32,889 nt of DNA from Oscillospiraceae bacterium. GTDB taxonomy: Bacteria; Bacillota; Clostridia; Oscillospirales; Ruminococcaceae. The notes under the pieces are model-generated. The model made no database searches, was not told the DNA's origin, and was given only the letters and a program-made list of their open reading frames with translations. Positions 1-30,550 of the stretch are shown piece after piece. Position numbers and translations under genes: made by a program. How positions within the stretch are numbered: the first letter of the stretch is position 1; each line of letters opens with the position of its first letter. The DNA lies in assembly GCA_009778115.1 (NCBI GenBank), contig WRKL01000011.1:1-32889 (forward strand), in the 5' to 3' direction.

Positions 1-5183
<5,183 letters not shown>

Positions 5184-6342: not shown

Positions 6343-8014
6343 ATGAAAAAACAAACAATATACCAAAAAGATTATAGCAAATATCAAAAGAACTATCAAG
6401 TACAACTTTGCAGTGAATTGGATATTTTACTGCCTGAAGATGAATCAATACGGTTATTGAGCGAAGTAATGGAGGAATTAGATTATACAAAATTGTATAA
6501 CGCTTACGCCGGAAGAGGGCGAAAACCGAAAACCGCACCGAGTGCCATGTTCAAAGTTTTAGTTTACGGAGCAAGTGAAGGGAAATTTGCAAGCAGTAAA
6601 GTAGCGAAAGCGTGCCGCCGAGACATCAATTATATGTGGCTTTTAGGCGAAGAACTGCCGCCGGATGATGATGCGTTGAATCGTTTTCGCAGCAAACATC
6701 TAAGTGAAGTGGTTGAAGATTTATTCTATCAGTTGGTGAAAAAGTTAAGAGAACTTGACGAAATCAAGTATGAGCATTTATTTGTGGACGGTACAAAAAT
6801 AGAAGCTAATACTAATCCCACATTAAAATCATCGTTTCAAACTTCGTTCGTTATTCGTTTTTCTTAAAAAACTACTCACTCGTTTTCAACGGTTTTTAAA
6901 ATGGGATTAGTATAATGCCAACAAATATACGTTTGTGTGGAAAAAAAGCACGAATAAGTACCTATCACGGTTGGAATCGAAGTTAAAGGATTTTATGATT
7001 GAAATTTACAATCGTTATAATTTACCAAACGAAACAACTCCACAGGAAACCATAAAACACCTTGAAAAACAAAAGAAAACACCTTTTGTTTACGGACGAG
7101 GAAAAAGGAAAACACAGCTTCAACGTGATTATGAAACTTTGATTGAAATGCTAACCCGGCAAGGCAAATACAACGAAACTTTTAGAGGCAGAAACAGCTT
7201 TTCAAAGACAGATCCAGACGCAACTTTCATGCGTATGAAAGACGACCACATGCGAAACGCACAGTTAAAACCGGGTTACAATCTACAACTTGCGGTTGAG
7301 GGTGAATACATAGTCGGATTAGATGTTTCAAGTGAACGTAGCGACCAATTAACGCTAATTCCGTTGATTGAACGTATGGAACAACAGCTTGAAAACAGAT
7401 ATGAAGATGTAACTTTGGATGCAGGTTATGAATCAGAAGAAAACTACACATTCTTTGAAAAAAGAGAACAAACCTGCTACATCAAGCCGCAGAATTATGA
7501 AAGAAGCAAAACTCGCAAATTTAAAAACAACATGTCCCTGCGTGAAAATATGCTGTATGATACTAAAAAAGACGAGTACACCTGTCAAAACGGAATGAAA
7601 ATGAAAGCGATTCACACAGGTAAGCGACAATCTAAAAGTGGATTTGAAAGTGAAATTACTTATTACGAATGTGAAAACTGCAAAGGTTGTCCTCATAAAA
7701 AGAATTGTACTCGTGCGAAAGGCAACCGCAAAATGCAGTTATCCAAAGAATTTTTACGGCAACGTAAAGAATCATTGGATAAAATCACATCGCAAAAAGG
7801 GATTTTATTAAGAATGAATAGAGCAATCCAAGCAGAGGGTGCGTTCGGTGTTATTAAGCAGGATTACGGTTTCAAGCAGTTTTTATTGAGAGGAAACAAG
7901 AAAGTCCGCACTGAACTTTTTATCCTTGCTTTAGGTTACAATATCAACAAGTTACATAATAAAATTCAAGCAAACAGAACTGGTCGGCAGTTGTTTGAGA
8001 AAATGTCAACTTAA
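6343..8014 (+). pseudogene. IS1182-family transposase, interrupted by a 103-bp mini-element
   Basis: Two frames (6343 to 6809 and 6916 to 8014) join into one 521-residue transposase when the inserted mini-element and one copy of its TAA target repeat (6810-6915, 106 bp) are removed. The repaired junction reads EANANKYTFVW, as expected in IS1182-type DDE transposases. The N-terminal DUF772-like domain contains GRGRKPKTAPSAMFKVL. The catalytic segments are HLFVDGTKIEAN (first Asp), DVTLDAGY (second Asp) and AEGAFGVIKQDYGF (Glu). A cysteine cluster, CENCKGCPHKKNC, precedes the last motif. The insertion adds stops and shifts the frame, so the enzyme is very likely inactive. Neither end of the insertion sequence could be placed. 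Expression appears leaderless (promoter at 6308-6336). Confidence 0.93.
6810..6912 (+). mobile_element. 103-bp MITE-like element, copy 1, inside the IS1182 transposase gene
   Basis: The element begins TACTAATCCC and ends GGGATTAGTA. Its ends are imperfect inverted repeats of about 19 bp (TACTAATCCCACATTAAAA against TACTAATCCCATTTTAAAA). It is flanked by a 3-bp direct repeat TAA (6807-6809 and 6913-6915), and removing it with one TAA restores the transposase frame. It has no coding capacity, so it must be moved by an enzyme supplied elsewhere. Two further copies lie at 8056-8158 and 14871-14973. Confidence 0.92.
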
Positions 8015-8055: not shown

Positions 8056-8158
8056 TACTAATCCCATTTTAAAAACCGTTGAAAACGAGTGAGTAGTTTT
8101 TTAAGAAAAACGAATAACGAACGAAGTTTGAAACGATGATTTTAATGTGGGATTAGTA
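8056..8158 (-). mobile_element. 103-bp MITE-like element, copy 2, inverted
   Basis: Reverse-complemented, this copy is identical to copy 1 over all 103 bp. It is flanked by a TTA direct repeat (8053-8055 and 8159-8161). It lies 41 bp after the transposase stop, in opposite orientation to copy 1, so the two copies form a large inverted repeat around the C-terminal part of the broken transposase gene. Complete identity points to recent movement or gene conversion. Confidence 0.92.
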
Positions 8159-8872: not shown

Positions 8873-8953
8873 GGGAGATTTCCCGAGCGGCCAAAGGGGG
8901 CAGACTGTAAATCTGTGGTCTACAACTTCGGTGGTTCGAATCCTCTATCGCCC
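8873..8953 (+). tRNA. tRNA-Tyr (anticodon GTA), with imperfect stems, possibly degenerate
   Basis: The D-arm region (CCCGAGCGGCCAAAGGGG), an anticodon arm with CTGTAAA as its loop (anticodon GTA at 8907-8909), a long class II variable region and a T loop TTCGAAT are all present and typical of bacterial tRNA-Tyr. The acceptor GGGAGAT (8873-8879) pairs with ATCGCCC (8947-8953) except for an A-G mismatch at the fourth pair. The T stem GGTGG/CCTCT has a T-T mismatch and a G-T pair. The base after the acceptor is C rather than the A usual for tRNA-Tyr, and no CCA is encoded. The gene has a plausible promoter and terminator. It may be a weak but working gene or a decaying copy. Confidence 0.75.
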
Positions 8954-9010
8954 CCCTTGGCTGCGCCGTTTCACTTGTGTTGTGGGTAAACTGGCTGCCT
9001 ACAATAAATT

Positions 9011-14870: not shown

Positions 14871-14973
14871 TACTAATTCCACATTAAAATCATCGTTTCA
14901 AACTTCGTTCGTTATTCGTTTTTCTTAAAAAACTACTCACTCGTTTTCAACGGTTTTTAAAATGGGATTAGTG
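14871..14973 (+). mobile_element. 103-bp MITE-like element, copy 3
   Basis: It matches copy 1 at 101 of 103 positions; the differences are T for C at the eighth base and G for A at the last base. It is flanked by a TCA direct repeat (14868-14870 and 14974-14976). The element lies in the convergent gap between the transglutaminase-like operon and tuf, just after the flagellin remnant. The third different flanking triplet confirms a TNA target pattern. Confidence 0.92.
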
Positions 14974-27913: not shown

Positions 27914-29074
27914 TTAGTTTAGATATTCTCTTTCGACACGCATTCCTATTTTGCTTAGAATTTCGTAACTGATCGTACCTGCGGTTTCCGCCAGCTCGTC
28001 CACACCCAAAAACGCATCCCCATTATGCCCGAACAGGGTCACCTCCTGCCCCTCGTCTGCGCCGATTCCGGTTACATCAACCATAATCTGATCCATACAA
28101 ACAACTCCGACGATCTTAGCATATTTCCCGCCGATCAGAACCCGGCCTTTGTTAGACAGTGCCCTCGGATAACCATCGGCGTATCCTGCAAAAACAGTTG
28201 CGATTTCCATTTGTCCGGGGGCGGCAAAGGTTTGTCCGTAGCTGATATATTCGCCTTTTTTTACGGTTTTTATCATTGCTATTTCAGATTTCAGTTTCAT
28301 CACGGGTTTGAGATTAACTTTGGAATTTTTACACGGATTTATACCGTACAGAGCAATTCCGGGCCGTGCAATCGAAAATTCCGGTTGATTTTCACACGCA
28401 AACGGTGTGCCAATGATCCCTGCGCTGTTTTGAATATGTGTTATTCCCGTATCAAAACCCCTGTTTTGAAGTTCGGTGATAAGCGAAAAAAATCGTTCAT
28501 ATTGGAGCTTGGTGTATGCTTGTGTCCTCTCATCTGTTCCGTCCGCACCTGAAAGATGAGAATATATTCCCGTCACGTTTAGATTTTTGTATTTGTATAT
28601 GCCGGCTATTTCATCAACCTGCTTGGAATTGCCCGAATAAGCAAAACCAAGCCGCCCCATTCCGGTATCAGCTTTAATATGTATATTTAAGTGTATCCCG
28701 GAATCTTCACATTCCTGTTGCAAATCTTTTGCGATACTTTGGTTGAAAACCGTTTGGGTAATGTTATTTTGCGCAAGGTAGACCGCTTGACCTCCGGTTG
28801 TTCCAAAAACCAGAATATCGCCTTTGATTCCGGCGGAACGCAGCTGTGCCGCTTCGTTTATATTGAAAACGGCAAAGAAGTCAACCCCCGCTTTTTCAAG
28901 TTCAAGCGAAACTCGCTGTGACCCGTGACCATAAGCATCCGCCTTTACCGCCGCCATAATTTTTGTCCGCTCGGGCAATATTTTTTTGAGCTCGCTGAGA
29001 TTATGACGCAACGCAAACAAATCCACTAATGCGCGGATCGGGGCTTTATATTTCAATTCGTGATATGAGATCAA
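27914..29074 (-). CDS. alr: Alanine racemase
   Basis: The 386-residue protein carries the PLP-binding lysine Lys44 in AAVKADAYGHG, the family segments GRLGF, IHIKADTGM and HIQNSAGI, and the C-terminal VVCMDQIMVDVT and ISYGQTF motifs that complete the active site. It converts L-alanine to D-alanine for peptidoglycan synthesis. The start is TTG at 29074, with GGAGG 7 nt upstream. The length is normal. It stands before an unrecognised gene (14 bp gap) and after a 249-bp gap holding an inverted-repeat element. No promoter is obvious in that gap. Confidence 0.97.
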   Translation of the reverse strand: MISYHELKYKAPIRALVDLFALRHNLSELKKILPERTKIMAAVKADAYGHGSQRVSLELEKAGVDFFAVFNINEAAQLRSAGIKGDILVFGTTGGQAVYLAQNNITQTVFNQSIAKDLQQECEDSGIHLNIHIKADTGMGRLGFAYSGNSKQVDEIAGIYKYKNLNVTGIYSHLSGADGTDERTQAYTKLQYERFFSLITELQNRGFDTGITHIQNSAGIIGTPFACENQPEFSIARPGIALYGINPCKNSKVNLKPVMKLKSEIAMIKTVKKGEYISYGQTFAAPGQMEIATVFAGYADGYPRALSNKGRVLIGGKYAKIVGVVCMDQIMVDVTGIGADEGQEVTLFGHNGDAFLGVDELAETAGTISYEILSKIGMRVEREYLN

Positions 29075-29133
29075 CTATTATCCTCCGTATTTAAAACTGA
29101 CTGTTTTTAACGAATCCTTTTAAAGCTTATCAA

Positions 29134-29295
29134 TAGACCTCCTCGAAAACCACTTCGCAACGTATGGACGGAAGATTTCCCGTCACACGGCGTTAATTTA
29201 TCCTCAAATATCTATGATATTTTCGTCAAAATTGCCTTGTTTGACGAAAAATCATCTGTGTTCATACATCACGTTTTAATTTCCGAAGAGGTCTA
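29134..29295. repeat. 162-bp inverted-repeat-bounded block upstream of alr
   Basis: TAGACCTCCTCGAAAA at the left end matches the complement of the right end (TTTCCGAAGAGGTCTA) at 14 of 16 positions. Inside are TTTTCGTCAAA (29220-29230), which pairs with TTTGACGAAAA (29240-29250), and GACGG/CCGTC near 29166-29184. The layout looks like a mobile mini-element or a structured RNA ahead of alr. No clear target-site duplication was found; TATC occurs near both ends (29128-29131 and 29300-29303) but does not align with symmetric termini. It is unrelated in sequence to the 103-bp family. Confidence 0.6.
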
Positions 29296-29323
29296 ATGGT
29301 ATCTTTATGAATAAAACAAATAA

Positions 29324-30550
29324 TTAAACCGTTTTAATAAATCTTTGGATCAGCTTCTTCGCATCGTCGTAAAATATCCCCGATGCTTTTGCTGTATCTT
29401 CGCTGAAGTTAACGCTATTTCCGGTTTTGATTTTGCCGGTTTTGTCAGATTCATATATTATAAACGGGACAGATGCCGATGTGTGCGTTCTGAGGTTCAA
29501 GGGAGTCGTGTGGTCTGAGGTTATCATAATTTTAAAGTCCTGACCTTTTAAACCGTCAAGCAAAAGTTTCAGCACTCTGCGATCTATATTTTCTATGGAT
29601 TTAACCTTATTTGCAAATTCGCCGCGGTGCCCGCATTCGTCGGGAGCTTCAATATGTATATAAACAAAATCAATTCCGTCCGCCAGCGCTTGCAATGCAG
29701 CATTTGCCTTACCCTCGTAGTTTGTGTCGATATATCCCGTCGCGCCTTTTACGTTTATTATCCGCATTCCGACCAAAGCCGCAATACCTTTGAGCAAATC
29801 CACTGCGGAAATCATCGCTGCATCCAAGCCGTATTTTTCCTTGAATTGGATAAGCGGAATTTTTCGCCCATACCCCCACAGCCATATAGCGTTTGCCGGA
29901 CGTTTACCGTCCTTAAGCCTGCGCAGGTTAACAGGATGGTTTTTCAAGACAATGCGGCTCTTTTCAATTAATTCCGTCAATGGTTTCGCATCGGGCGCAT
30001 CCGGAAGATATTTTTTTATGTTTTCGTCCATAATGTCATGAGGAGGCGAAAAAACTCCGAGATTCCCTCTATCTGACGGGCATTTAAACACAAGACAATG
30101 CCGGTAATTTTTACCGCAATAAAAACGAAAAATATCGCTGTTGAATTCATCCTGCAATGCTTTTACCAGTTCGTCCGCTTCCTGCGTGGATATATCGCCG
30201 GCGCAGTAGTCGAGCATAACACAATCTTCCAGTTTTTCATGCCCCGAAAGTGTCACAAGATTACAGCGCACCGCAAAATCGTCAGAGTCCAAATCTACCC
30301 CGATACTCGCCGCTTCCAACGGAGCGCGGCCGCCGTAACCCGAGGTTAGTTCATACCCCAAAACCGATAAATTCCCGACATCGCTGCCCGGCTCGAATCC
30401 GTCCGGAATCGTCTTCACCATCCCGGTTTCCCCTAAATCCGCTAACATATCCATGTTGGGTGTAGCCGCTTTTTCCATAGGGGTCATGCCGTCAAGCTCT
30501 TTTTGTTTATTGTCGGGCATACCATCGCAAAGCAAAACTATGTATTTCAT
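29324..30550 (-). CDS. apgM: Cofactor-independent phosphoglycerate mutase homologue (archaeal-type)
   Basis: The 408-residue protein belongs to the alkaline phosphatase superfamily. MKYIVLLCDGMPDNK gives the first metal-binding Asp, GSDVGNLSVLGYE holds the catalytic Ser, and EAPDECGHRGE with ITSDHTTP supplies the remaining metal ligands. The length fits the archaeal-type enzyme rather than the GpmI form of about 510 residues. It would interconvert 2- and 3-phosphoglycerate. Some members are proposed to act as homoserine kinases instead, and no thr genes are nearby to decide. The start codon is 10 bp after a small membrane-protein gene, so the two are probably co-transcribed. Confidence 0.93.
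   Translation of the reverse strand: MKYIVLLCDGMPDNKQKELDGMTPMEKAATPNMDMLADLGETGMVKTIPDGFEPGSDVGNLSVLGYELTSGYGGRAPLEAASIGVDLDSDDFAVRCNLVTLSGHEKLEDCVMLDYCAGDISTQEADELVKALQDEFNSDIFRFYCGKNYRHCLVFKCPSDRGNLGVFSPPHDIMDENIKKYLPDAPDAKPLTELIEKSRIVLKNHPVNLRRLKDGKRPANAIWLWGYGRKIPLIQFKEKYGLDAAMISAVDLLKGIAALVGMRIINVKGATGYIDTNYEGKANAALQALADGIDFVYIHIEAPDECGHRGEFANKVKSIENIDRRVLKLLLDGLKGQDFKIMITSDHTTPLNLRTHTSASVPFIIYESDKTGKIKTGNSVNFSEDTAKASGIFYDDAKKLIQRFIKTV

Follow-up and report, generated by a model that had tools for sequence, protein, structure and literature searches.

The inverted-repeat block upstream of alr in an Oscillospiraceae bacterium is very probably a copy of a dispersed palindromic MITE with IS5-type ends

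The 162-bp inverted-repeat block located directly ahead of the alanine racemase gene (alr) in the window (the whole 32,889-nucleotide stretch of contig WRKL01000011.1 analyzed here) very probably belongs to a palindromic, non-autonomous MITE family that is dispersed in the genome, carries no gene and would be moved in trans by a transposase of the IS5/ISL2 type. The initial annotation had offered two readings, a mobile mini-element of a different family or a folded RNA leader acting on alr, and the first of these is borne out by dispersed copies in discrete size classes, 3-bp ANT duplications, nesting and matching IS5-type insertion sequence ends in relatives. That a transposase of this type moved these particular copies is what we infer from the comparison with those relatives. 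The family has the features by which bacterial MITEs are recognized, being short and non-coding, with terminal inverted repeats, many copies and a target duplication, and it has ends in common with an autonomous transposon in the relatives G056, G017 and G029. The window copy represents one insertion, between the phosphoglycerate mutase gene and alr, that probably has no specific function. The features of the locus are as follows.

29132-29134, no strand: left 3-bp target-site duplication AAT (sequence, with the register taken from 57 flanked copies)
29135-29294, minus strand (the best-folding RNA strand): MITE proper, 160 bp, AGACCTC...GAGGTCT (dispersed copies, alignment, folds)
29135-29149, plus strand: left terminal inverted repeat, the diverged arm, CCTCGAAAACC; the insertion sequences of relatives have CCTCGGAAATT there
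29220-29250, no strand: perfect 11-bp inner dyad (sequence)
29276-29294, minus strand: right terminal inverted repeat, reading AGACCTCTTCGGAAATTAA on that strand, near the IS5-family ends of G056, G017 and G029
29295-29297, no strand: right 3-bp target-site duplication AAT (sequence and flanked copies)
29324-30550, minus strand: phosphoglycerate mutase, 2,3-bisphosphoglycerate-independent, the upstream neighbour (PF10143, PF01676)
27914-29074, minus strand: alanine racemase (alr), the downstream neighbour (PF01168, PF00842)

The block had been placed correctly at 29134-29295, with outer 16-mers (29134-29149 and 29280-29295) that match as an inverted repeat at 14 of 16 positions, and the inner dyads ascribed to it were found as well, the 11-bp one (TTTTCGTCAAA/TTTGACGAAAA, arms 29220-29230 and 29240-29250) being perfect. 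Taken alone, the terminal match is within chance, as each of ten first-order Markov controls of the window contained from 0 to 5 such 14/16 pairs. The whole fold, on the other hand, is beyond chance on either strand: the RNA of the minus strand folds at -67.5 kcal/mol (z -10.85) and that of the plus strand at -44.5 kcal/mol (z -4.89), and in neither case did any of 200 shuffles equal the value. The element proper is the 160 bp from 29135 to 29294, the outer T and A of the block being part of the AAT target duplication. As had been noted, the block fills most of the intergenic gap between the phosphoglycerate mutase and alr ORFs (162 of 249 bp) and no promoter is evident, no sigma-70-like site having been found within 29000-29400; nor does any ORF of at least 80 amino acids overlap 29134-29295.

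The search for dispersed copies that had been proposed for recognizing a mobile element was run on the own genome of the window (1,450,493 bases in 87 contigs, 65% complete). A blastn search with the block gave at least 44 matches (40 of 134 candidates were scored), 40 of the 44 with 83-100% identity, and a terminal-repeat pattern allowing up to two mismatches had 197 matches (reversed control: 10), which corresponds to about 95 elements. The true copy number is probably higher because several copies sit at contig ends; indeed, many contigs end in a MITE copy. About 95 copies in 1.45 Mb amount to one per 15 kb, an unusually high density for a MITE in bacteria. Both ends could be paired in 59 copies, drawn from the surroundings of the first 100 listed of the 197 ends and of 30 blastn loci, while copies with one worn end or broken off by a contig end were left unpaired. 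The paired copies fall into discrete length classes: 4 of 54-60 bp, 22 of 73-83 bp, 14 of 126-143 bp and 16 of 160-178 bp (56 copies of 54-178 bp in all), plus 3 of 222-236 bp. Judging by their sequences, the shorter copies appear to be derived from the long class by internal deletion. A 222-bp copy (L019, G000:C2:5287-5508) has one arm in which a 15-bp unit is repeated several times in the manner of a minisatellite. According to a simple ORF call, all 59 paired copies lie outside ORFs longer than 450 bp and therefore insertions into genes are rare or have been lost.

With AGACC...GGTCT as the element boundaries, identical 3-mers stand on both flanks in 46 of 57 flanked copies, 43 of the 46 in the form ANT; the remaining 11 flank pairs are not identical, and the adjacent 3-mers, used as a control, agree in 3 of 57 copies. 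The window copy is flanked by AAT on either side. On contig C19, a longer element has inserted into one of the short class and is bordered by AAT at both junctions; the outer element is intact once the insert and one AAT are removed. At this nested site (L067, G000:C19, about 3061-3362 of the contig) the inner copy is enlarged by about 85 bp close to one of its ends. No orthologous site was seen both occupied and empty; in the same-genus genome G001, alr shows 46% identity and the region upstream of it is different.

Elements with the same ends occur in other genomes. One sister family has copies at 1362-1521 of L094, 5554-5714 of L120, 5030-5191 of L121 and 6474-6635 of L124, L120 and L121 being from one MAG so that the family is present in three genomes. 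These four copies have a common interior that is unrelated to that of the window family, and the copies in G205 combine the same ends with a third, unrelated interior. Thus, several MITE families use these ends. The sister MITEs resemble the window family in their ends, length (157-162 bp) and palindromic structure but differ from it in their interiors and in that only a few copies of them were seen.

The fold of the family is markedly one-sided, the RNA of the minus strand being the better folder of the two in 54 of the 56 copies (54-178 bp). In a strand-neutral self-alignment of the 162-bp consensus, the differences between the arms leave 9 G.T vs 1 A.C pairs on the minus strand, and the diverged arm, compared with the insertion sequence ends, has changes that leave wobble pairs on this same strand (alignment columns 13, 17 and 18). 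The G205 element with the unrelated interior (L092) gave 0 G.T vs 7 A.C and the G215 element (L094) 11 G.T vs 0 A.C, each as one-sided as the window consensus for its own better strand; the Fisher-combined P for these three representatives, which were picked after the counts had been seen, is 4e-5. These counts, together with the sister-family changes given below, speak for a reading that would add to the MITE reading, namely that master copies are selected for a hairpin of one RNA strand (or of single-strand DNA), useful for tolerance in transcripts or for steering mRNA processing, e.g. as reported for ERIC/NEMIS. However, the relatives of L094 show weak asymmetry (6:3, 3:2 and 4:2 in L120, L121 and L124), and the copies have no significant orientation preference with respect to neighbouring transcription (19 in the same and 12 in the opposite direction, P = 0.28).

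Covariation, which had been named as decisive for a folded RNA, is clear in the sister family and mixed among the own copies. In only four sister sequences 14 of 62 pairs were changed on both sides, a number reached by 0 of 500 shuffles, whereas the A2 alignment of the window family has 5 of 63 such pairs and 18 of 500 shuffles reach it. Fourteen copies of the 160-178-bp class (16 in all) entered the A2 structure counts; L014 (C3:40904) and the 178-bp copy of that class were omitted, as were the three longer forms (222-236 bp). Unique changes among the own copies mostly behave as if unconstrained: 13 pairs were kept vs 12.8 expected and 26 broken vs 23.3 expected in the 143-bp class, and 19 were kept vs 16.9 expected in the 76-bp class. 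The 162-bp class fares better (33 pairs kept vs 26.5 expected, P 0.006). The compensation in the sister family shows that the palindrome was kept through divergence, and it is compatible with selection on RNA or DNA, as the keeping of a DNA palindrome likewise yields compensation. The RNA of the element may thus matter to the element itself, yet we hold selection of master copies for a one-strand hairpin to be unlikely, if worth considering, and its extension to the IS5-type MITE lineages of Oscillospiraceae in general, as RNA-active passengers, to be slightly more doubtful. If such selection were real, G.U pairs would accumulate on one strand and compensatory changes would hold the stem while the sequence drifts.

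Returning to the MITE reading, the enzyme that mobilizes the family is probably an IS5/ISL2-type transposase. A 21-base end pattern was searched in 394 genomes and matched in eight, own genome included; the sole congener encountered, G001, did not match. Among named genomes, five stretches from MAGs of Oscillospiraceae and Bacillota carry exact matches to the ends, and we take these MAGs, by their isolate names, to come from termite guts. G056 (L090) has a complete insertion sequence of about 900 bp that is bounded by these ends, at 615 and about 1520, and flanked by ATT left and right; its two frames overlap and match HTH_Tnp_4 (PF13613) and DDE_Tnp_4 (PF13359), which places a DDE_Tnp_4-type transposase between the ends in a relative. 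Reading inward from the repeat end in G017 (L122), one comes to the C-terminus of a transposase of the HTH_Tnp_4/DDE_Tnp_4 kind, and in G029 the C-terminus of one of the same kind stops just inside the repeat. The ISL2 group of the IS5 family duplicates a 3-bp ANT target (ISfinder), a rule on which a literature search returned nothing usable. Elements of this group with two overlapping frames have been described in Amoebophilus, in the part of PMC3196728 that deals with them. Searches of the own 65%-complete assembly found neither DDE_Tnp_4 (PF13359) nor DUF4096 (PF13340), nor a protein like that of L090 (in a search for which that genome offered no positive control), and the enzyme is therefore deduced from the relatives. 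According to the mechanism that we propose, an ISL2-like IS5-family transposase with HTH_Tnp_4 and DDE_Tnp_4 would be supplied in trans, would recognize the MITE ends of about 20 bp (AGACCTCCTCGGAAATTAAA), excise or copy the element and insert it at an A-N-T target, duplicating 3 bp. It is quite improbable that the copies are moved instead by a different transposase of the own genome: the candidates are of the DDE_Tnp_1 type, the only ones of that type found there, and the three loci retrieved with PF01609 (on C77, C11 and C19) have no convincing window-family ends nearby, while the relatives' insertion sequences that bear the ends are of the DDE_Tnp_4 type. In this way, the relatives tie orphan MITEs to a transposase group.

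That the block is a structured RNA leader regulating alr in cis, as its position directly ahead of this gene and the great fold stability of the alr strand might suggest, is scarcely credible, given that about 95 copies of the family lie beside many genes elsewhere in the genome, that the alr loci of six relatives (L125-L130), examined for the conservation that had been proposed as a check, have no such block and no homology in the gap, that Rfam has no match in it and that orientation shows no significant preference. A milder version may hold: one strand being by far the better folder, transcription through a copy would give the message a strong hairpin; the window copy, between co-directional genes, would add a hairpin of about 160 nt to any read-through transcript. 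The block is not a terminator, as no T-run follows the hairpin; the sole terminator-like match in 29000-29400 lies at 29020-29039 on the minus strand, inside the alr ORF. The one Rfam match of the window is a tRNA (8873-8954).

The MITE family itself is new as far as our searches reach: besides Rfam, no match was found among phages, plasmids and viral contigs, which disposes of a phage or plasmid origin, and the literature searched held no description of it. Its kind is well known. According to the excerpts of PMC4596501 on these elements, MITE464/PgRS and BrickBuilt of P. gingivalis and ATR of N. meningitidis are likewise protein-less and multi-copy, with IS5-matching terminal repeats, GAGACC-type ends and internal direct repeats, but they have other end sequences, around 10-20 copies and a parent insertion sequence in the genome; the target duplications of BrickBuilt are described there as irregular, unlike those of the window family. 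ERIC/IRU and Correia/NEMIS, as presented in excerpts of PMC2229807, share the size of about 100-160 bp, the mostly intergenic location and the long, stable stem-loops in transcripts, and Correia, too, occurs at full length and in a form shortened internally; the same excerpts describe ERIC as acting on mRNA in an orientation-dependent way. ERIC/NEMIS differ in their 5'-TA-3' termini, their other sequences and the RNA effects reported for them, and the window family is set apart from them by its AGACCTC ends, its ANT target and the lack of an Rfam match. RUP of Streptococcus pneumoniae is similarly a MITE whose ends indicate a parent insertion sequence, but this is IS630-Spn1, of IS630 instead of IS5, with a TA target (same excerpts). 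The points of interest of the present family are its copy density, its size ladder and the wobble pairing on one strand, and its copies offer a natural series of sites, sizes and orientations for the effects of mobile hairpins on operon mRNA.

The block is, as had been claimed, unrelated to the other inverted-repeat family of the window. This second MITE-like family, palindromic and 101 bp long with ends ACTAATCCCA, has copies at 6811-6911, 8057-8157 and 14872-14972; its ends matched 60 times in the own genome vs once in the control, corresponding to about 30 copies, and its flanks suggest a TA duplication. In the window region 6600-8014 there is a DDE_Tnp_1/DDE_Tnp_1_6 transposase ORF (6935-8014), which the copy at 6811-6911 seems to split from upstream coding sequence, and the copy at 8057-8157 stands just behind it. 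Finally, an IS5-type insertion sequence with ends AGACCTCTTGCGAAATTA was noticed at about 1259-2395 of L031 (G123), with an extra truncated copy beside it.
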